This document shows, in pieces, positions 4,258 to 27,183 of a DNA stretch of 27,183 nt (position 1 is its first letter; each line of letters begins with the position of its first letter). The notes below the pieces were generated by a model. It saw nothing but the letters and a program-made list of their open reading frames with translations. It did not search any database and was not told where the DNA came from. The stretch comes from a virus, in the IMG/VR virus record IMGVR_UViG_3300022602_000343, positions 1 to 27,183 of that record. One strand, written 5' to 3'. The translations under genes and the position numbers were made by a program.

Positions 4258-4992
4258 TTACGTTCCCGTCTGCGGTATCTGCGTGTAATTATACGGCAGG
4301 CCGACATTCGCCGTCAAAACACGCGTCGATCCGGTCAAGAAAGACCCGGAAGGTATAGCAGATGTCACCGTGTAGGTGAAGGCCGTGGCGGTCGTTACCG
4401 TAATTGAATAAAACCCATTTACGGCGTTATTAGAGGCGCCAGACACCGAAATTTGCGCGTTTGTCGCCAGATTATGCGGCGTGCTGCAAGTTACCGAAAT
4501 GATTGTCGTGCCAATCGAGGAAATCGAAACAACCGGCAGCAGGACATCATAATGAACCGTTCCCTGAAGCGGCATGATTGCGCCGGGTTCAAGGCCAACA
4601 GGCGGCCCAATCGGCTGCATGGTCAGGTTTTGGCCGTCTTGGGTGACATAATTTGTCGTGGACGGGATCGGGATGCCCGTCGTTGGATCGTAGACAGTCG
4701 GCGCGCTCGTCGTCTGATAATCAACCGAAGCCGCAACAAAATCCTGCACGCGAGCATTTACAATCGGCGTCGGATCGGCGGGAACGACAATCGCCCTGTT
4801 TTGCTCTTGTGGCGTATCAAGACAATCACTACAGACTAAAATGCGCGTGTTAAGTAATGCCGCGCCTCTCCATTCAAATTGAGGAAATAAATCCACAAAA
4901 TTTACACGAAAATTACATCTATCGCATATAGCATGTGCTTGCGGATTGCTAAAACTAGTACGAGCCCTTCCGCTTTTACTTGCATAAGCCAT
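4258..4992 (-). CDS. Virion structural protein with Cys4 motif and Ig-like C-terminal domain
   Basis: The 244-residue product has an N-terminal four-cysteine arrangement, CDRC at about 23-26 and CSDC at about 54-57, likely binding zinc. This is followed by LDTPQEQNRAIVVPADPTPI, a stretch common in phage structural proteins encoded near connector genes. The C-terminal 85 residues are a small beta-rich domain of the FCCH/Ig-like kind (STPHNLATNAQISVSG, VNGFYSITVTTATAFTYTV). The stop is followed by one short gap before the fibre ATG, and the start overlaps the last base of the GIY-YIG endonuclease stop. Position between connector and fibre suggests a tail or neck component; the exact role is unknown. 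Confidence 0.7.
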   Translation of the reverse strand: MAYASKSGRARTSFSNPQAHAICDRCNFRVNFVDLFPQFEWRGAALLNTRILVCSDCLDTPQEQNRAIVVPADPTPIVNARVQDFVAASVDYQTTSAPTVYDPTTGIPIPSTTNYVTQDGQNLTMQPIGPPVGLEPGAIMPLQGTVHYDVLLPVVSISSIGTTIISVTCSTPHNLATNAQISVSGASNNAVNGFYSITVTTATAFTYTVTSAIPSGSFLTGSTRVLTANVGLPYNYTQIPQTGT

Positions 4993-5927
4993 TATAAGTT
5001 TCCTTCATATGCAAATTTCTTTTTTCCAACAGTTTTTCTTCTCCGTTTCCCAAGGCATAATTCAATTATTGCGCTTTTTGCCACTTTATAAAAATTAGCG
5101 GCCTCTGACGCAGAAGAAAAAGACATATTATCGTCAAGACATATAACACGCTTTGCGTTTTTCATTGGACCCGCTTTTGACCTTCCAAGGCAATCTATTG
5201 GCCCAACAGGTATTGGGCGGGGCGGTTTTTCTTTTTTAGGTTTACGAACGCGGACAACCCAAGCGTCACGCAATTTTTGTTTACGATCTTCGCTATGCTT
5301 TCTGCCTTTTAGTGCAACACTAATTTTTGCTCTCGTTCCTTCCGGACAACGCTTGCCAAAATGAAAGACTGATATTTTTTTACGTGTTTCAACAGACGCG
5401 GGTTTTCTTTTTTTACCTTTGTTTGCTAATCCAATTTTTATTTTTGTTTCTTCCGACGTAGGTTTGCGTTTAATGCCACGCCGTGCGCGCCCACTTTCAA
5501 TAACGCGCTCACGGATAAGGGGATTGGTTTCCCATGTTTGTTTTGTTTTGACCCGTAATTTTTCAATATATTCAGGATTTTTGTTGCGTTCTTTTGCGGC
5601 GTCGGACATCTTTTGTTTCGTTGCCTCGGAACATGTATATCCCGATTTCCCATCTCCTCCGTCCGTCATATTGGCAAGGTCAATTCCAGCGTTCCGCCAA
5701 AATCGAATACGCTCGCATTCTAAATCAAACGCTTCTTCCTCGGTCAAACCAATCGCGACCATGCGGACTTCAATGGCAGCGCCTTCGCGCGCAACCTTAG
5801 CCTGTATTGCATTATGGTGGCGGTTTCGATATTTCATATCATATGCGCGACGGCCCTTGCCTTTACCTACGTAAAAGCATTCGTCCCTATCTAACCGCCA
5901 GTGCTCATAAACGTAAAAATTGTTCAC
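4992..5927 (-). CDS. GIY-YIG homing endonuclease with NUMOD repeats
   Basis: The frame is open upstream to 5957, but a perfect AGGAGG six bases before the GTG at 5927 fixes the likely start, giving 311 residues. The GIY-YIG domain covers about residues 3-90, with YVY at 5-7, FYVGKGKGRRAYD at about 18-30 and a conserved Glu in LECERIRFW. Four NUMOD3-like DNA-binding repeats follow (SEETKIKIGLANKGKK, SVETRKKISV, GTRAKISVALKGRKHSED and an earlier degenerate copy). A C-terminal NUMOD1-like helix-turn-helix (MSFSSASEAANFYKVAKSAI) completes it. Such free-standing enzymes cut cognate phage genomes lacking them and spread by homing. The gene is AT- and Lys-rich unlike its neighbours, consistent with invasion between two late genes. 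Confidence 0.93.
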   Translation of the reverse strand: MNNFYVYEHWRLDRDECFYVGKGKGRRAYDMKYRNRHHNAIQAKVAREGAAIEVRMVAIGLTEEEAFDLECERIRFWRNAGIDLANMTDGGDGKSGYTCSEATKQKMSDAAKERNKNPEYIEKLRVKTKQTWETNPLIRERVIESGRARRGIKRKPTSEETKIKIGLANKGKKRKPASVETRKKISVFHFGKRCPEGTRAKISVALKGRKHSEDRKQKLRDAWVVRVRKPKKEKPPRPIPVGPIDCLGRSKAGPMKNAKRVICLDDNMSFSSASEAANFYKVAKSAIIELCLGKRRRKTVGKKKFAYEGNL

Positions 5928-5958
5928 GAACCGCCTCCTAACGGCTGATATTAACACA

Positions 5959-9072: not shown

Positions 9073-9861
9073 CTACCCTTTCGATTCAAGAGATACCACA
9101 TTCGGAGACGCTTCGGAATGCTTATCAAGGTACTGAATGGCGGAAAGAAGGATGTTGCGGTTTTCTTTCATTTTGCCAATCGCCTGATTGCAGGCTTCAC
9201 ACAGAAGGCCACGAACCTTGCCAGTCGTATGGTTATGATCGACAGCTAGCGCCTTGGTTTTCCCGCCGCGCGTGGCCGTTTCTTCCTGATCGCAAATGGC
9301 GCATTTGTTGTTTTGAGCAATGGCCATTGCAATGTAGGCGCTCATATCAATCCCATATTTCTGGGTCAGATAAGTGTCCTTCCATTCAACTGGATATGCT
9401 TCACGATGAGCTTTCATGTATTCCTTCCGATCCGTGGAAAGAAACTTGTTAGCTTTTGAGCCCATGCCGTTTGTTTCGTAAAGATTGGCAATTCGCAAAT
9501 TAAGCGTATCGCCATCGTGAAAACCAAGACGTGCACGAGGCCACTCACCGTAATGGAGCAACCAAGCTAGCTTGGCGGCGGGAATAGAAGCGCCATCAAT
9601 ACGAATGTACCGATAGGAAACTTTCTCGCCGCCCTTGCCAGTCCGGGTTGCCTTATCGCACCCAGCGATTGATCCTGCACACACATTCCGGGATGCGGGG
9701 ACAATCCAAGTGAAAATCCCCGTATCAGCGTCGTAAGCCAACTTCTTGGCGATAGTATCAACAGTCAGGCCGTATTCTTCGGACATGGAAGCACCTTTCT
9801 TGGTAACGCTTACAGGGAAATTGTATATCCCTTTTTGCGTATCCTGTAAAGAGGCTTCCAT
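9073..9861 (-). CDS. HNH homing endonuclease with endonuclease VII-type domain
   Basis: The frame is open into the capsid gene through a TTG at 9897, but AAGGGT seven bases before the ATG at 9861 favours that start (262 aa). An ATG at 9786 with its own AAAGG is the alternative. The N-terminal half has an HNH/AP2-associated pattern (LAYDADTGIFTW, YRYIRIDG, KLAWLLHYGEWP, HDGDTLNLRIANL). The C-terminal half is of recombination endonuclease VII type, with CAIC at about 187-190, DHNHTTGKVRGLLCEAC at about 208-224 and two zinc-binding CxxC pairs. It is inserted directly after the major capsid gene, a favourite homing site. Confidence 0.88.
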   Translation of the reverse strand: MEASLQDTQKGIYNFPVSVTKKGASMSEEYGLTVDTIAKKLAYDADTGIFTWIVPASRNVCAGSIAGCDKATRTGKGGEKVSYRYIRIDGASIPAAKLAWLLHYGEWPRARLGFHDGDTLNLRIANLYETNGMGSKANKFLSTDRKEYMKAHREAYPVEWKDTYLTQKYGIDMSAYIAMAIAQNNKCAICDQEETATRGGKTKALAVDHNHTTGKVRGLLCEACNQAIGKMKENRNILLSAIQYLDKHSEASPNVVSLESKG

Positions 9862-9893
9862 GTTTTTACCCTTCTGTTGATTTCTCAGCAAAA

Positions 9894-10808
9894 TCAAGAG
9901 GTTGGGAAGCTACCATAGATGGAGCGCCAGTTATAATATCCGAAGCTATACCTCTCGTAGCCCTTCACAAGAAGGTTATCCGTGACGAAATCCACCTGCA
10001 TATCCGTCTCGAACTTGATGCGCTCCATGTAGGAGAGGCCATCGATGTTCGTGAGCAGGAACCAAGCGTACTGCGACGTGAGGAAGTCGTTGACCATGTA
10101 CGATTCCGGCAGACCACCGGCAGTCGTCATGATAGCGTTCACATCGTTGTCGGCGGTGCCGGGGCGGAGTTCCGTCTTGAGAAGGCGGATCGCGACGGGC
10201 TCAAGCTGCGGGGGAACAATCAGCTTGCGAGCGCGGGCAAACACCTTGAGACCGGCCTGATCCTTGAAGTTCGTGCGAACCGCGATCATCGCGTTAAGCA
10301 GCGTGGCTTCGTTAAGATCAACCTGAGTGGTCGGGGTGTTGGCGACCGTGCCACCGTCAATCGGGTGCGCCGTCGAACACAGGGCAACGCCATCGCCGCC
10401 GACAGCCGCATTGTACGTTGTCGCGGTGTTCAGGATCGTCGCGCCGTAGATTTCCTTGGTCTGCTGGAAAGACTCGATTAGGCCAAGGTTCGACGGATGA
10501 AACTGGGTCTTGTACAGGTTATCGTCAACCGCCTTGCGGGTGATCCCGTAACCAAGACCAATTTCGGTGTGCTCCTGATTGTACACATAGCGTTCGCCCG
10601 CGCCATTATCGAAAGCGGTCTGGCCGCCTTCGGTCTTGAGCTGGGCAAAGCCAAGATACCGCATTTCAGCGGTGCGCTCGAAGGCCAGCTTCGAGTCGTG
10701 CTTCGTGAAAATCTTGTCGTACTGAGATGGGATCATCTCGTACTTGCCTTCAATACCCCTCAGACCGGGGAGGAGAAGGTCTTTGATGGCACTAAGATTA
10801 ACAGCCAT
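9894..10808 (-). CDS. Major capsid protein, HK97 fold
   Basis: The 304-residue length and features such as EIGLGYGITRKAVDDNLY, SFQQTKEIYGATILNTA, VALCSTAHPIDGG and KLIVPPQLEPVAIRLL match HK97-fold major head proteins, in particular the group related to Mu gpT. The CSTAHP element and the C-terminal YERYSFGYYNWRSIYGS strand are characteristic. The capsid shell is built of several hundred copies of this protein assembled around the scaffold encoded upstream. AAGGAG precedes the ATG at 10808. The HNH endonuclease is inserted after it. No separate maturation protease was identified in the window. Confidence 0.87.
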   Translation of the reverse strand: MAVNLSAIKDLLLPGLRGIEGKYEMIPSQYDKIFTKHDSKLAFERTAEMRYLGFAQLKTEGGQTAFDNGAGERYVYNQEHTEIGLGYGITRKAVDDNLYKTQFHPSNLGLIESFQQTKEIYGATILNTATTYNAAVGGDGVALCSTAHPIDGGTVANTPTTQVDLNEATLLNAMIAVRTNFKDQAGLKVFARARKLIVPPQLEPVAIRLLKTELRPGTADNDVNAIMTTAGGLPESYMVNDFLTSQYAWFLLTNIDGLSYMERIKFETDMQVDFVTDNLLVKGYERYSFGYYNWRSIYGSFPTS

Positions 10809-21686: not shown

Positions 21687-22172
21687 TCAGCCCTTCGCCG
21701 CGCCCGTCTTGATGAGCGCCTTCTCAAGCGCCTCAAGCTCTTCGAGCGACAGGCCGGACACGTCCAGCTTGTTCGTGTTCTCGGTCTTGATCGGGCCGCC
21801 GTCAATACCCGAGACTTCGGTTCGCACCTTATCGCCGTATGTCTGCGGCGACACCTTCATGATGCGCCACTGCAAATGGTTCAGCTTCACGCGCGCGGAG
21901 TTGACGTTCTCCTCGCCGCACTCATCGGCGAGCTTCTTGGCGCGATAGAACTCATAATCAGCAAGAGCTTCCCGCGCGCGCGCGCATATTGTGGCAAATT
22001 CTGGATGAGCGACCTGCCACCTATAAACGGTCGTTCTATCGGGCATATCCTCGGCCTGACAAATCTCGACCAAATCCCTCCCGTTCGCCATTTCGACGAA
22101 GATGCGGTCGGCGATTTCGGGCGAGTATTTGCTTGGTCGACCAACTGGCCGGCCTGTCGGCTTGGTCGCCAC
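21687..22172 (-). CDS. terS: Terminase small subunit-like protein
   Basis: The start is GTG at 22172, with AAGGGAG eight bases upstream; it overlaps the gapR-like stop as TAGTG. The 161-residue product begins with a basic arm (TGRPVGRPSKYSPEIADRI), followed by a helix-turn-helix (VEICQAEDMPDRTTVYRWQV). The segment KVSPQTYGDKV comes before GIDGGPIK, typical of small terminases of this type. The protein recognises the packaging start on phage DNA and recruits the large subunit encoded immediately downstream. Confidence 0.88.
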   Translation of the reverse strand: MATKPTGRPVGRPSKYSPEIADRIFVEMANGRDLVEICQAEDMPDRTTVYRWQVAHPEFATICARAREALADYEFYRAKKLADECGEENVNSARVKLNHLQWRIMKVSPQTYGDKVRTEVSGIDGGPIKTENTNKLDVSGLSLEELEALEKALIKTGAAKG

Positions 22173-22444
22173 TACGCAAACTCCCTTTCAACAGCCGACT
22201 GCCCGAGGGGCAAATCGGCGAGCATCCCTAGGGCGACCATGTAAGTGTCGATCAGGGCCTGCTCGCGCATCCGTTTATCGGCATCCTGCTTCCGCATGGC
22301 AATGATTTTCTTGATGATTTTGGGATCAAAGCCATTTGACTTGGCTTCGATGTAAATTTCCTTAATTGATTCGGCGATGTCCGCCTTTTCGGCTTCCTGG
22401 CGCTCGATGCGCGACACAATTGATTGCAGTTGATTGTTTGTCAT
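22172..22444 (-). CDS. GapR-like nucleoid protein (DUF2312)
   Basis: The frame is open to a TTG at 22459, but GGAG eight bases before the ATG at 22444 marks the start, giving 90 residues, the usual length of the family. The sequence follows the DUF2312 pattern: LQSIVSRIERQEAEKADIAE, IKEIYIEAKSNGFDPKIIKK and MRKQDADKRMREQALIDTYM. GapR of Caulobacter forms clamps on overtwisted DNA ahead of polymerases and helps gyrase and topoisomerase IV. The family is typical of Alphaproteobacteria. Here it heads the packaging operon, directly before the small terminase, so a role in relieving supercoiling during replication or packaging is a reasonable inference. Confidence 0.88.
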   Translation of the reverse strand: MTNNQLQSIVSRIERQEAEKADIAESIKEIYIEAKSNGFDPKIIKKIIAMRKQDADKRMREQALIDTYMVALGMLADLPLGQSAVEREFA

Positions 22445-22595
22445 TCGATATTTCTCCAATTACGACTGCTATAGCGACCTCGGCCTGCCCGAGACAGAAT
22501 GAGCAGGGCTCCCGACATGGATCGCCGGCCACGAAGTCGGGCGGGGTATAGGCGCAGAGCGCGAGGGCCACCTGATCGACGATGTCCTGATCCAT
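22362..22595 (-). CDS. Small Cys-containing protein, possibly translated from a leaderless mRNA (77 aa)
   Basis: The ATG at 22595 lies six bases after a TATAAT, so a transcript from that promoter would begin at or next to the start codon, with no room for a ribosome-binding site. The first 50 residues (MDQDIVDQVALALCAYTPPD, GDPCREPCSFCLGQAEVAIA) look protein-like, with a CREPCSFC cluster, and resemble short phage proteins. The last 27 residues overlap the gapR-like gene in another frame by 83 bases and look less natural. The function is unknown. The reading frame could also be fortuitous, covering only the leader of the gapR-like gene. Confidence 0.5.
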   Translation of the reverse strand: MDQDIVDQVALALCAYTPPDFVAGDPCREPCSFCLGQAEVAIAVVIGEISNDKQSTAINCVAHRAPGSRKGGHRRIN

Positions 22596-22720: not shown

Positions 22721-22736
22721 GATGGAGATAGACATG
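22721..22736 (+). promoter_or_regulatory. Repeated translation leader, copy 1
   Basis: GATGGAGATAGACATG is identical at three early gene starts. GGAG sits six bases before the final ATG. An in-frame ATG lies 12 bases upstream in every copy, so the N-terminus could also begin MEIDM, but spacing favours the second ATG. Confidence 0.75.
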
Positions 22737-23051
22737 ACAGCCAAAGCTAAAAAGAACGAAATCGTCGCAATTCAAACGCAACGCTCCAGCACGAAAATGC
22801 ACGGTAAGACCGAGCGTTACGTCACCTACAATCTCGCGCAGGCGACCCGCTGCAATCGCCAGGGCATTGTCGAATGTGTGCGATACGAGCCGCGCGGCCC
22901 CGAGTATATGCTGGATTACAACCAGCGCGCGATGGTGATCAGCGGCCCCAATCAGGATTTGGCGGCTCTCTTGTGGTCGTCGGATCAAAAGGAATACTCA
23001 ACCGCCGAGGAACTCAAGAACGCCATTCTTGGCGTCGCCACAACAGCTTGA
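22734..23051 (+). CDS. Early protein of unknown function (105 aa)
   Basis: First gene of the rightward early unit, started at 22734 by the repeated leader. The protein has a basic N-terminus (TAKAKKNEIVAIQTQRSSTK), then YVTYNLAQATRCNRQGIVEC and PEYMLDYNQRAMVISGPNQD, ending in an acidic helical tail. I recognise no family. Position directly behind the operator-controlled promoter suggests an early host-takeover or regulatory product, but nothing in the sequence shows what it does. Its TGA lies inside the leader of the next gene. Confidence 0.72.
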   Translation: MTAKAKKNEIVAIQTQRSSTKMHGKTERYVTYNLAQATRCNRQGIVECVRYEPRGPEYMLDYNQRAMVISGPNQDLAALLWSSDQKEYSTAEELKNAILGVATTA

Positions 23052-23065
23052 TGGAGATAGACATG
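23050..23065 (+). promoter_or_regulatory. Repeated translation leader, copy 2
   Basis: The same 16 bases as at 22721, here overlapping the stop codon of the preceding gene, which would couple translation of the two genes. Confidence 0.75.
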
Positions 23066-23374
23066 CCCGCTTTCGACTACATCTTCGACGAAGTCCCCTT
23101 GACCCTCGGCACGGACCACGAGTTCACGGCTCGGGGCGAGATCGAGATTTATTACACTTGCGGTCGTGGCGACGCCTCCGTTGGCGAAGGCCCTCGGTAC
23201 GTGGAGGCCGAGCCGGATCAGGAGCTGACGGTGATCCTGACCGACGAGAACGGCGACGACGTGATGGAAATCACGGTCGACTGGAAGGACCCCATCTATC
23301 ACGCCTTCATGAAGGAGAGGATGGACGACATCTATCAGGCGGCGGTGGACGAGGCATGGGGGTCGAGGTGGTGA
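23063..23374 (+). CDS. Acidic early protein of unknown function (103 aa)
   Basis: Started at 23063 by the second leader copy, this 103-residue protein is strongly acidic throughout (EVPLTLGTDHEFTARGEIEI, DQELTVILTDENGDDVMEIT) and ends in a helix (MKERMDDIYQAAVDEAWGSR). It looks like a small beta-rich domain followed by a helix. No family is recognised. The high acidity is reminiscent of DNA-mimic phage proteins, but that is speculation. Its 3' end overlaps the methyltransferase start by 19 bases. Confidence 0.72.
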   Translation: MPAFDYIFDEVPLTLGTDHEFTARGEIEIYYTCGRGDASVGEGPRYVEAEPDQELTVILTDENGDDVMEITVDWKDPIYHAFMKERMDDIYQAAVDEAWGSRW

Positions 23375-24246
23375 CGGGCGCCTTTTATAACGAATACGAC
23401 GAGTTCGCGGCGGCCCTCCTGCGAGAGTGCGCCGCGTCTGATATCATAGCGCCGGGGATTGTTAGCTCGGCGTCAATCAAGGACTTGACCCCCGATGACG
23501 TTAAACAATTCACGCAGGCGCACTTCTTCGCCGGAGCCGGGCTCTGGTCAGTTGCAGCTCGGCTTGCCGGATGGCCTGACGACAGACCCCTCTGGACAGG
23601 ATCGTGCCCCTGTCAACCCTTCTCTCAGGCGGGAAAAGGGCTCGGTGTCGACGATCCAAGGCACCTGTGGCCCGACTTCTTTCGACTTATCCGAGCCTGT
23701 CGGCCCCCTGTCGTCGTGGGAGAGCAGGTTGCGGGAGCGGCTGGCTATGGTTGGCTCGACGGAGTCCGCGCTGATCTGGAAAGTGAAGGCTACACCTGCT
23801 GGGCGGTCGATATCCCGGCTTGCGCGGTGGACGCCCCCCATATCCGAAACAGAATCTATTGGGTCGCCGTGCGCGACATGGCCAACGCCGATGGCAGGAA
23901 CACCAGCGCAGAATGGCAACAGCGCGGCGGGGAACAACGATGGCATTCGCAAAATGGAAATGATTTTGGGGATGCGCGAGACCATCAACGGCCCAAAGGT
24001 TTCTGGTCCGATCACGAATGGATCATCTGCCACGACGAAAAAGCGCGACGTGTCCCGAGGCAGTCCGAATCCGGTGTTCGCCATGTGGTTGATGGGGTTA
24101 CCGGAGAATTTGCGGAATGCGATCCTTCGCGTTTGCTCGTCCCTGCCTTCAAGGGGCGGCAACAAGCCTGGAAGATCGCGGGAAACGCCATAGTCCCACA
24201 GCTGGCGGCTCAGGTTCTGGGGGCTCTGATGGACGTCTTAAAATAA
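23356..24246 (+). CDS. C5-cytosine DNA methyltransferase
   Basis: With the ATG at 23356 the protein has 296 residues, short for the class but with all core motifs in one frame. Motif I is HFFAGAGLWSVAARLAGW (about 56-73; the second Gly of the usual GxGG is Leu). Motif IV is TGSCPCQPFSQAG with catalytic Cys86. Motif VI is VVVGEQVAG in place of the usual ENV, as in many phage enzymes. Motif VIII is PHIRNRIYWVA and motif X is IAGNAIVPQLAAQ at about 274-286. It methylates cytosine at C5, probably to protect phage DNA from host restriction; no partner endonuclease is seen. GTG codons at 23368 and 23371 are alternative starts. Confidence 0.92.
   Translation: MGVEVVTGAFYNEYDEFAAALLRECAASDIIAPGIVSSASIKDLTPDDVKQFTQAHFFAGAGLWSVAARLAGWPDDRPLWTGSCPCQPFSQAGKGLGVDDPRHLWPDFFRLIRACRPPVVVGEQVAGAAGYGWLDGVRADLESEGYTCWAVDIPACAVDAPHIRNRIYWVAVRDMANADGRNTSAEWQQRGGEQRWHSQNGNDFGDARDHQRPKGFWSDHEWIICHDEKARRVPRQSESGVRHVVDGVTGEFAECDPSRLLVPAFKGRQQAWKIAGNAIVPQLAAQVLGALMDVLK
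23495..24193 (+). other. Long second open frame inside the methyltransferase gene (232 codons)
   Basis: A second plus-strand frame stays open for 699 bases within the methyltransferase gene. Its translation (LSSWESRLRERLAMVGSTES, ALIWKVKATPAGRSISRLA, WPTPMAG, FAMWLMGLPE) resembles, from memory, a family of phage proteins ending in a WLMGxP motif and usually annotated beside or over C5 methyltransferases. It may be a true overprinted gene or a shadow of the conserved methyltransferase. No ribosome-binding site was identified at its ATG. Confidence 0.22.
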
Positions 24247-24333: not shown

Positions 24334-24349
24334 GATGGAGATAGACATG
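24334..24349 (+). promoter_or_regulatory. Repeated translation leader, copy 3
   Basis: Third identical copy of the 16-base leader GATGGAGATAGACATG, with GGAG six bases before the ATG at 24347. Confidence 0.75.
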
Positions 24350-24915: not shown

Positions 24916-25124
24916 GCAAGATTGAAATGGACCTCCGCCCCTGCTGGGAGGCCGACCCCGAGCTTTGGGACACCTTTTGTTGGGCGACGGATCGCCCCGA
25001 TAGCGGCCCGTCCGACCTCTGGACGGTTCATTACGTGAACGCCTGGTTCGACGAGGAAGTTAAAAAGCTTCTGGAAGTGGTCGACGCCCTGATCATGTCG
25101 CACCTGTTGGGTCCGCTCCATTGA
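24912..25124 (+). CDS. Small acidic, Trp-rich early protein (70 aa), function unknown
   Basis: The gene overlaps its upstream neighbour by four bases. The product is acidic and unusually rich in tryptophan (PCWEADPELWDTFCWATDRP, DLWTVHYVNAWFDEEVKKLL). It resembles no family known to me. It is followed without a gap by the HTH gene, whose TTG start overlaps its stop, so the two are probably made in fixed ratio. Confidence 0.62.
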   Translation: MSKIEMDLRPCWEADPELWDTFCWATDRPDSGPSDLWTVHYVNAWFDEEVKKLLEVVDALIMSHLLGPLH

Positions 25125-25336
25125 CCGGGCCGGAACTTAGGGCATTGATGACCAGGCACGGTATTACGGTTCAGGCCCTCGCCGACGTAATCGGCAAAAG
25201 CAACAGAATGATTGACCACTACCGATCGGGGAAGCATGACATTCCCCGCCTGCTGGCGATCCTCATGGCCGCGATTGACGCCAAGACGATTGACACAGAT
25301 TGGCTGGAGGGTTTTTTGGAATCCGAAAGCAAGTAA
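25121..25336 (+). CDS. Cro-sized helix-turn-helix DNA-binding protein (71 aa)
   Basis: The likely start is TTG at 25121, overlapping the previous stop as TTGA. The 71-residue product is a single HTH domain of the XRE/Cro kind. Helices 2 and 3 are VQALADVIG and SNRMIDHYRSGK, framed by ELRALMTRHGIT and IPRLLAILMAAID; only a short acidic tail follows, so there is no separate sensor domain. It is the last gene before a strong terminator. Given three copies of a symmetric operator at the promoters of its own unit, autorepression of the early region is the natural hypothesis. DNA specificity cannot be read from sequence. Confidence 0.72.
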   Translation: MTGPELRALMTRHGITVQALADVIGKSNRMIDHYRSGKHDIPRLLAILMAAIDAKTIDTDWLEGFLESESK

Positions 25337-25448: not shown

Positions 25449-26105
25449 CTACCACGGCGGATCGTCATCAAACACCGTCCCGTCAATGGGGGCGATACTG
25501 TCGGCGACGCCATCGAGGGGGTCGGCGACATATGTGCCGACGCGGGTGACGGTCGCGCCGGGATAGGCGTCCTTGACCTTGGCGATGGCGGGAAACTCCT
25601 CGATGAGCCGGGCGATTTCCTCTAGGGTGTAAACTCTCGCCTTACGCCCCGCCGGATCGACGAGGCGGGCGTCGGCGTCCGAGCGCACGACCGCGACGAC
25701 CGTCCCCCGTGGCGTGACGGCCTCCCAGACTTCAGGGGGGCGCGCGGGCTTGCCGGCGGCGTCGGCGGCCTTGTCGAGAACCCGCCACGCCGCCATCATG
25801 CGTTTGGCCTCGCGCCTGACGGACTCAAGGTCGCCGTGCCAGATCGCTTGATTGACGAGGTAGCGCTGGCGGTCGAATTTCTCGCGCAGCTCCTTGTCGA
25901 CCAGAAGCCGGAGGCGATCGGCCCCCCACTTGGCCTCCATCTCGATCGCCAGCATGTCCAGGTCGTCCAGCTCCTCGCGCCCGGAGATATACGTGCCGAC
26001 GGTCGCCTGCCACTCGGGCGCGTCAAGGCGCGACGTGGGGACGCCATGAACGGTCTTGTGACTGGGCCTGCCTTTTGACTTGCTGTCGAATTTACCGTTT
26101 GCCAT
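25449..26105 (-). CDS. Conserved phage protein after replication genes (218 aa), function unknown
   Basis: GAGGAG lies eight bases before the ATG at 26105, inside the end of the preceding gene. The product contains LDDLDMLAIEMEAKWGADRL, LREKFDRQRYLVNQAIWHGD and EVWEAVTPRGTVVAVVRSDA, and its C-terminus is acidic (DGTVFDDDPPW). I recognise it as a protein type seen beside replication genes of alphaproteobacterial phages, but it has no known activity. No catalytic or metal-binding pattern is visible. Confidence 0.68.
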   Translation of the reverse strand: MANGKFDSKSKGRPSHKTVHGVPTSRLDAPEWQATVGTYISGREELDDLDMLAIEMEAKWGADRLRLLVDKELREKFDRQRYLVNQAIWHGDLESVRREAKRMMAAWRVLDKAADAAGKPARPPEVWEAVTPRGTVVAVVRSDADARLVDPAGRKARVYTLEEIARLIEEFPAIAKVKDAYPGATVTRVGTYVADPLDGVADSIAPIDGTVFDDDPPW

Positions 26106-26646
26106 TTTGCTTGCTCCTCAATTTCAAAATTTGTCTTTTCCGTTCCCGCTCCAGATGCTCGACCAGCTTCTCGGCTGACTTGGCCGCGCGGGACAATTCA
26201 GACCGCCGCCGGAGGTCTGGCCCCCACTTGATCGTCAGGTCAAGCATATCGTCAAAATATCGCCGGCGCTTTTGAATCGCGGACGGTTCTAGGTTTAAAA
26301 TCCTGCCCCCATGCGTTTCCATAATCTCCTGCCGTATGTTCTCAACTGCCGTGAAGTAGGGCGAGAGGGTCTGATTGGCGTTTGCCAGATCAAGCAGACA
26401 TTCCCTCCAGAACTCTTTTGCCATTGTTAACGCCTGCTCAATATCCTCCCCAGTTCGGGCCCCGGGAGCCCTGTTTGTGACCGGGGACTCCAGTCGCCCC
26501 CCGGTCACGGGGGCGACCGGGGAAGTTTTCCCCGGTCCCCGGTCACTATAGGGCTCCCGACTGGACCGGGGAAGGTTTTTCCCCGGTTGGTTCCCCGGTC
26601 CAAAAACCGACCGGGGAAATTCCATCTGGCTTTTTGTCTCCGTCAC
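26092..26646 (-). CDS. Replication-region protein whose 5' half contains the palindrome array (184 aa)
   Basis: GTG at 26646 is preferred since it overlaps the ATPase stop as GTGA; an ATG at 26625 is the alternative. The first 57 residues or so are low-complexity Pro/Gly/Arg sequence imposed by the palindromic DNA (FGPGNQPGKNLPRSSREPYS). From EDIEQALTMAKEFWRECLLD onward the protein is helical and charged (RRYFDDMLDLTIKWGPDLRR, EKLVEHLERERKRQILKLRS) and very basic at the end. No family is recognised. By analogy with lambda O, an origin inside an initiator-like gene is possible, but the sequence alone does not show that this protein is an initiator. Confidence 0.62.
   Translation of the reverse strand: MTETKSQMEFPRSVFGPGNQPGKNLPRSSREPYSDRGPGKTSPVAPVTGGRLESPVTNRAPGARTGEDIEQALTMAKEFWRECLLDLANANQTLSPYFTAVENIRQEIMETHGGRILNLEPSAIQKRRRYFDDMLDLTIKWGPDLRRRSELSRAAKSAEKLVEHLERERKRQILKLRSKQNGKR
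26479..26618. repeat. Array of nine ACCGGGG/CCCCGGT sites with perfect hairpins, candidate origin
   Basis: Cores occur at about 26479, 26499, 26515, 26528, 26537, 26564, 26579, 26591 and 26609, in both orientations. Pairs form perfect palindromes: 26515-26524 with 26528-26537 (10-base arms, 3-base loop), 26565-26573 with 26579-26587 (9-base arms), and 26591-26600 with 26609-26618 (10-base arms, 8-base loop). The consensus is GACCGGGGAA. The array lies in the 5' half of a gene next to a RepA-like ATPase, which fits iterons of a replication origin or a cluster of regulator sites. Confidence 0.85.
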
Positions 26647-27183
26647 GACACGGCCCCCGGCCTCTTGGAGGGGTCGACTTCGAGGCCGGAACGCTCCGCC
26701 TTCCCGTCGTGATACTGGCGAACTTTTAGCAGGCCGCTCTTGATCCACGCGCCCAGTATCTTCCCGGCCTTATCCTCGTCACAGGAAAATATCCCCATGA
26801 TGACCTTGCCGGCCCACCTCTTCGAGGCCTGCTTCTTGGGGCTATACATCTCGCCCGTGGGGGCGCCATCGTCGTCCGTAATGCCCCTCTGGATCATGTC
26901 GAGGCAGACGTTGATGTGGCTGGAGCTAATGCCATCAAAGAGCCCCGGCGGCGTCCACGGCATGAGGACGCCCACCTCGTCGGCGGGGTGGTCGCCGTCG
27001 CCATTGGGCAGCTTGATTGACAATTTCTCAAACCAGCGGGCCGCGCCGGTAATGATCGACAGGTTCGCCTTGGCGTCGTCGAACCGCACATAGCGGTATC
27101 GTTCCTCGGCGCTGACGCCCATGGTGGCGGCCTCCTCCTCGGTCATGGCGAAGAGGGTCGACATGACGCGGGCGGTGCCGATG
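26643..27183 (-). CDS. RepA-like AAA ATPase, C-terminal part (cut by right edge)
   Basis: The frame runs open through the right edge; the internal ATG at 27164 is unlikely to be the start, because the codons before it read IGTARV, continuing the conserved ARVxxTLxxMTxxEA pattern. Visible elements are VMSTLFAMTEEEAATMGVS, RYRYVRFDDAKANLS, DEVGVLMPWTPPGLFDG and RWAGKVIMGIFSCDEDKAGK. This order matches the C-terminal region of RepA-type AAA family ATPases of phages and plasmids, hexameric helicases related to DnaB. The ATPase core (Walker motifs) would lie outside the window. Overlap with the next gene is GTGA. Confidence 0.75.
   Translation of the reverse strand, partial: IGTARVMSTLFAMTEEEAATMGVSAEERYRYVRFDDAKANLSIITGAARWFEKLSIKLPNGDGDHPADEVGVLMPWTPPGLFDGISSSHINVCLDMIQRGITDDDGAPTGEMYSPKKQASKRWAGKVIMGIFSCDEDKAGKILGAWIKSGLLKVRQYHDGKAERSGLEVDPSKRPGAVS

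Follow-up and report, generated by a model that had tools for sequence, protein, structure and literature searches.

The window analyzed here, a stretch of 27,183 bp that makes up an entire IMG/VR phage record, carries one seven-base core again and again beside a replication gene. The question raised by this locus is whether the array is the place where the phage starts its replication and, if so, which protein may read it. We approached it through the statistics of the array itself, the genes around it, and the corresponding loci of related phages and prophages.

Repeat array and the genes around it

Nine ACCGGGG cores were found on both strands within 137 bp (26480-26616), with mixed spacing and inverted pairs (Table 1), consistent with the nine seven-base cores counted in the original prediction. 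The perfect hairpins with arms of 9 to 10 bp that had been described along with them are present, but there are four of them rather than three. Of the 10 matches to the 8-mer GACCGGGG in the window, 8 lie inside the array; 1.3 matches would be expected in the whole window, and none of 100 shuffles gave 10. The repeat density of the array was matched by none of the 102 other 500-bp windows of the record. A DNA search of the array region against named phages gave no match.

Table 1. Features of the array region in the window, and array cores found in relatives
Feature	Position or source	Strand	Remarks
g218, conserved neighbor gene	25449..26105	-	218 aa; marker for finding relatives; similarity does not follow the core
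Small ORF	26092..26646	-	184 aa; reads across the array; GTG start overlaps the replicase stop
Iteron-like array, candidate replication origin	26463..26623	.	Nine ACCGGGG cores, consensus GACCGGGGA, both orientations, plus outer stem
Outer inverted repeat	26463..26559	.	CGGGAGCCCT (26463-26472) / AGGGCTCCCG (26550-26559); closes a large potential stem-loop
Hairpin	26477-26486/26499-26508		10 bp, perfect
ACCGGGG core	26480..26486	+	
ACCGGGG core	26499..26505	-	
Hairpin	26515-26524/26528-26537		10 bp, perfect, inside I4
ACCGGGG core	26516..26522	+	
ACCGGGG core	26530..26536	-	
ACCGGGG core	26537..26543	-	
CCCTATAG	26546..26553	-	Mid-array; half or counterpart of the CCCTATAGGG palindrome recurring in relatives' arrays
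Hairpin	26565-26573/26579-26587		9 bp, perfect
ACCGGGG core	26565..26571	+	
ACCGGGG core	26581..26587	-	Flanking base deviates
Hairpin	26591-26600/26609-26618		10 bp, perfect
ACCGGGG core	26593..26599	-	
ACCGGGG core	26610..26616	+	
Replicase, C-terminal 179 aa	26643..27182	-	Prim-Pol/AAA_25 type, phrog_25693; cut by the record end
Predicted winged-helix-like C-terminal domain	26676..26924	-	Residues 87-169; putative array binder
Core AGTCAGCA	L015		
Core CTGGTGCTA	L013		
Core CGATACGA	L100		
Core GCACAGAA	L093		
Core ACCTCCGCAA	L163		
Core GCGTGACA	Phages 16-3 and RHph_X2_25		Isolated phages
Core GGCGGAGAT	Phage RHph_N65		Isolated phage
Core TACTTCCGCC	EBPR siphovirus 5		Environmental

The sole significant PDB sequence match of the replicase fragment is the RSF1010 helicase RepA (E 1e-4), and the full-length replicases of relatives, 690 to 780 aa long, combine a Prim-Pol domain (PF09250) with an RSF1010 RepA-like AAA_25 domain (PF13481). 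The array was correctly placed by a RepA-like gene, just 3' of its stop at 26643. It had also been put inside a replication gene, nested as in lambda; the array instead begins 3' of the replicase stop, within the short ORF that follows.

In the subclade of the window, the array occupies the 5' part of this small gene, while it is mostly intergenic elsewhere. A start overlapping the replicase stop and a frame open across the array are also found in four relatives (L098, L077, L132, and L134), the chance product for the five open frames being about 1.5e-6. In L133 the frame is a separate one, and the small gene was not seen in L015, L130, L131, L144, and L200, where the array is present. Since every reading frame and both orientations are represented among the cores, no peptide requirement accounts for them, as had been argued from codon need; together with the persistence of the array where the small gene is absent, this indicates that the DNA repeats are conserved and not the peptide. 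As for the ORF itself, the idea that it is spurious, based on a g110 homology that starts at the ATG at 26424, was dropped in view of the stop-overlapping start and the open frame in the four relatives. Neither the small ORF nor g218 gave anything informative in NCBIfam, Pfam, or PHROGs.

Same place but different repeats in relatives

Because the 179 aa of the window, used as a single query against viral and genome contigs, returned no relative, we gathered relatives through the terminase and g218, as well as through a replicase alignment, by which 225 viral stretches were found to encode a relative and 80 of them were kept. The viral set comprised 81 loci with distinct C-termini, 78 of which were comparable, and an array was called where at least 5 copies of one 7-mer occurred per 220 bp within 2.5 kb of the replicase. 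An array lay downstream of the replicase stop at 53 of the 78 loci and upstream at 3; at a threshold of at least 7 copies, these numbers were 33 and 0. An independent set of 54 bacterial-genome loci, mostly from Alphaproteobacteria, was drawn by alignment of the C-terminal region of the window, and 53 of them were usable. In this prophage set, at least 5 copies were found within 320 bp of the stop at 41 of the 53 loci, compared with 1 of 53 for a control position.

The expectation that the repeats are kept in relatives held in part. The core of L098 is identical to that of the window (GACCGGGGA), with a C-terminus 53% identical to the window's, and other relatives carry an array built on another core (Table 1), but at some loci the array is 0.3 to 2 kb away from the replicase or none was found. 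Three complete phages (16-3, RHph_N65, and RHph_X2_25) have a single array per genome, with 12 to 16 cores per 400 bp and only 1 to 2 at the next best place. The arrays of 16-3 and RHph_N65 are unannotated, the 16-3 record having no feature there. The 16-3 array takes up about 350 bp at about 56.2-56.6 kb of NC_011103, and the replicases of these two phages are p101 (16-3) and EVC08_051 (RHph_N65). Plasmids carry such repeats as well: TGCGGAA occurs 12 times on a 38-kb Caenibius plasmid with genes for a terminase and an integrase, and CGCAACA 8 times on a Methylobacterium plasmid. On Azospirillum plasmid p1 (L217, 605327-615114), an unannotated replicase-homologous ORF is followed by seven copies of CGGGACA and a ACACCCTTAAGGGTGT palindrome, which is the array architecture of the phages, integrated in a megaplasmid.

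Two further observations were made. In Microcystis phage Mae-Yong1326-1 (L207), CGAGGGC is repeated exactly more than 20 times over about 210 bp, about 2.2 kb past the replicase, and a weaker GACTGGC array, distinct from that cluster, lies directly after the replicase. The array was also considered as a generic dispersed element; viral contigs searched for a palindrome pattern yielded 18 loci, none with an array, and this candidate was rejected.

Covariation of the core with the replicase C-terminus

Core similarity was compared with domain similarity at 41 loci (Spearman correlation, 300 permutations). It correlated with the similarity of the C-terminus (0.67) and of the AAA half (0.63), followed by the Prim-Pol half (0.42) and g218 (0.15). 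The partial correlation, controlling for the others, was 0.35 for the C-terminus (0/300 permutations), 0.16 for the AAA half (3/300), 0.06 for the Prim-Pol half (83/300), and -0.03 for g218 (184/300), where the permutation counts are indicative only, since the loci are not fully independent and Mantel-type tests therefore overstate certainty. As far as sequence comparison can tell, changes in the core go with changes in the replicase C-terminus, whereas neither the Prim-Pol half nor g218 shows independent covariation with it. L091 and L095 are 84 to 100% identical in the first 300 aa and about 20% identical later; they differ in helicase and C-terminus, and their arrays are unrelated. The pair L093 and L107 shows a like pattern. 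In nearest-neighbor prediction of the core, the C-terminus did little better than the Prim-Pol half (59% versus 56% of loci), a narrow lead because the domains are mostly co-inherited; the argument rests on the exchanged pairs together with the partial test.

Two AlphaFold2 models, one of the window C-terminus (pLDDT 79) and one of the C-terminal family that is otherwise most common (pLDDT 84), end in the order H-H-H-E-E, which is that of a winged helix. The assignment of the C-terminus as winged-helix-like is suggestive only, because neither model had a significant match to a winged-helix or other fold in Foldseek (best E 0.03 and 0.06); the matches for the window model, all non-significant, include winged-helix proteins and RSF1010 RepA.

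Spacing, companion elements, and GC skew

Across the family, the spacing of same-strand copies peaks at 9 to 11 bp, about one helical turn. Two kinds of companion element recur among unrelated cores. An AT-rich TTGAAATCATT-type element was found at 29 of 74 viral loci (1.3 expected) and 3 of 51 prophage loci (0.25 expected). A palindrome of the CCCTATAGGG type lies within or borders the array at 15 of 74 viral loci (2.5 expected) and 18 of 51 prophage loci (2.3 expected); the viral counts are partly circular and the prophage counts fairer, because the patterns were chosen after viral examples. The array of the window has no AT-rich TTGAAATCATT-type motif, and of these elements only CCCTATAG, in its middle. 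IHF-like sites were found at 9 of 74 viral loci (0.8 expected), where they overlap the AT-rich element, and DnaA boxes were not enriched at the viral loci (2/74). Cumulative GC skew, which had been proposed as a check of the origin, has no extremum at the array in the complete relatives 16-3, RHph_N65, and RHph_X2_25, and tracks gene orientation.

Candidate origin and rival explanations

Taken together, these comparisons argue that the array is the phage replication origin, or its initiator-binding part, read by the C-terminal domain of the replicase, a reading to which we assign a probability of roughly 0.75. The candidate origin of the original prediction is well supported by the conserved place, the covariation with the C-terminus, the helical spacing, and the companion elements. 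The main rival, which we consider unlikely, is that the repeats bind the replicase C-terminus for autoregulation or copy control, by titration or handcuffing, and that replication starts elsewhere. The covariation points to a binding partner and not to an origin, the GC skew does not turn at the array, and the arrays are on the 3' side of the replicase gene, all in keeping with such a role. However, regulatory sites of this kind should lie by the promoter, on the 5' side of the gene and not on the 3' side, the AT-rich and palindromic companion elements suit an origin, and the single array in each complete genome leaves no separate iteron origin visible. We see it as very improbable that function lies in a large stem-loop of the kind proposed for pRN1 and phage BIP-1, with the repeats arising as a by-product of its stems. 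Single-strand folding of the window array is indeed strong (z-score -9.1), L133 and L144 also fold strongly, and pRN1 requires a stem-loop of 100 nt on the 3' side of orf904 (PMC4234260), but folding potential varies widely across the family (z -9.9 to -0.4), so that we rejected the large stem-loop as a conserved property. Many arrays consist mostly of direct repeats and fold little, such as those of L143, L210, L074, L093, and L206 (z -0.4 to -1.8, with 5 to 12 copies per core); what the arrays have in common is repeats, not stems.

The position just past the stop codon, and the GC hairpin in which some arrays finish (CCCCCACACTCCTTTAGGAGTGGGGGTTTT in 16-3), would also fit a transcription terminator, an attenuator, or an mRNA-stability structure closing the replicase operon. 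Such a structure has no need for 5 to 16 copies of a 7-mer that tracks a DNA-binding domain, and the array holds many hairpins and is read across by the next ORF, which makes this explanation highly improbable. Packaging (pac), partition, and recombination sites likewise use clustered repeats, yet the core tracks the replicase C-terminus, the array keeps with the replicase while the terminase genes lie kilobases off, and no partition genes were seen beside the array; we see only a slim chance that it is one of these. That the repeats merely encode a needed low-complexity peptide is scarcely credible: the window and four relatives all have an open frame across the array, beyond chance expectation, but the placement of the cores in every frame and orientation, and the arrays of other relatives that lie outside such a gene, speak against it.

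Proposed mechanism and implications

We infer origin activity, binding, unwinding, and the priming site as follows. In the replicase, a Prim-Pol domain and a hexameric helicase of the RSF1010 RepA type would be joined to a winged-helix-like domain at the C-terminus. The last of these would bind several copies of the GACCGGGGA repeats, on neighboring helical turns and as inverted pairs, and this binding would gather the helicase on the array, where the DNA would open. The Prim-Pol domain would then lay the first primer, possibly at a CCCTATAGGG-type palindrome. Since the binding domain and the array lie side by side, they would change and be exchanged jointly, giving each lineage its own core.

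A broader picture is possible, although we lean against it, in which the arrays represent a widespread, unannotated, modular origin system of phages and prophages, mostly in Alphaproteobacteria. Each Prim-Pol-helicase would have a C-terminal reader and an iteron array of its own, the two being swapped as one cassette; the shared CCCTATAGGG palindrome would serve as a common Prim-Pol priming site, and the iteron code would set the replication compatibility of co-resident phages and be readable from sequence. If the origin reading is true, replication origins could be located from sequence in a large set of environmental phages and prophages, isolated phages such as Rhizobium 16-3 would gain a specific candidate origin, and the pairs of domain and core would predict between which co-resident phages there is competition for initiators. 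These matched pairs, of which there are dozens, would also serve as a natural data set on how the DNA specificity of a winged-helix-like domain changes.

Other features of the window and of a relative

The element ATGGAGATAGACATG directly precedes three small genes on the plus strand (22722-22736, 23051-23065, and 24335-24349), and a pattern search gave 4 matches at no more than 2 mismatches, with 0.02 expected. In L105, ATGGAGATNGAYATG-type leaders lie ahead of a run of small genes at ten places on the minus strand, several of them sharing a longer upstream stretch. This type of element resembles a recurring leader, either of translation starts or of promoters. A small HTH protein (25121-25336, plus strand; HTH_3 weak, PHROG transcriptional repressor weak) is encoded on the strand opposite the replicase and is possibly a lysogeny regulator. 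By eye, the ORF at 23332-24246 (plus strand) resembles a C5 cytosine DNA methyltransferase, with PCQPFSQAG and related motifs, and the ORFs at 4992-5957 and 9073-9897 (minus strand), among the structural genes, resemble homing endonucleases (GIY-YIG-like and HNH-like). The terminase small subunit (21687-22172, minus strand) is 50% identical to those of L003 and L005, whereas the large subunit is 100% identical and the ORF next to the small subunit (22172-22459) about 97% identical. Judged from these identities, the small subunit is a sharply local replacement relative to the near-identical L003 and L005.

Comparison with known systems

Searches of the open literature, with subscription papers and preprints outside their scope, found no description of a replicase-linked array family. 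The lambda ori has its repeated initiator sites (iterons) inside the initiator gene O, and the likeness lies in repeated sites by or within replication genes; the array described here, however, follows the initiator gene. For other Prim-Pol families, it has been suggested that a winged helix recognizes the origin (PMC5862659). Plasmid pRN1 has a required element 3' of its Prim-Pol-helicase gene, and its ORF904 and phage BIP-1 combine Prim-Pol, helicase, and C-terminal winged helix with a candidate origin just 3', an arrangement shared here with a predicted winged helix, but their helicase is of the SF3 type, their stem-loop is free of iterons, and no specific binding was seen (PMC4234260).

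As described in PMC4234260, two further systems share parts of this arrangement. P4 alpha is a single polypeptide with primase and helicase whose winged helix binds the repeats of the origin, so that primase, helicase, and winged-helix repeat binder (a putative one in our case) occur in one protein; the P4 primase is of the Toprim type, whereas a Prim-Pol (PF09250) and an AAA_25 helicase are found here. The oriV of RSF1010, with RepA, RepB', and RepC, resembles our system in its RepA-type hexameric helicase, its iterons, and the hairpins at the primase start, but it uses three separate proteins, and the iterons are bound by the separate RepC.

The excerpts of PMC7581432 offer two parallels in which sites lie downstream of the gene of their binder. 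The SCCmec helicase Cch2, which acts with CCPol-MP, binds direct repeats downstream of its own gene, although the primase and helicase families are different and there are only three 5-nt iterons. SaPI Rep recognizes, with its C-terminus, iterons directly downstream of its own gene (Ubeda et al. 2007, as described there). The phage enzyme differs in being a fusion of Prim-Pol and an RSF1010 RepA-type helicase, found in tailed phages, and the AT-rich TTGAAATCATT motif and the CCCTATAGGG palindrome are not among the SaPI features described in those excerpts. What SaPI Rep and the replicase of the window would have in common is a multi-iteron origin downstream of the initiator gene, read by the C-terminal domain of the initiator.
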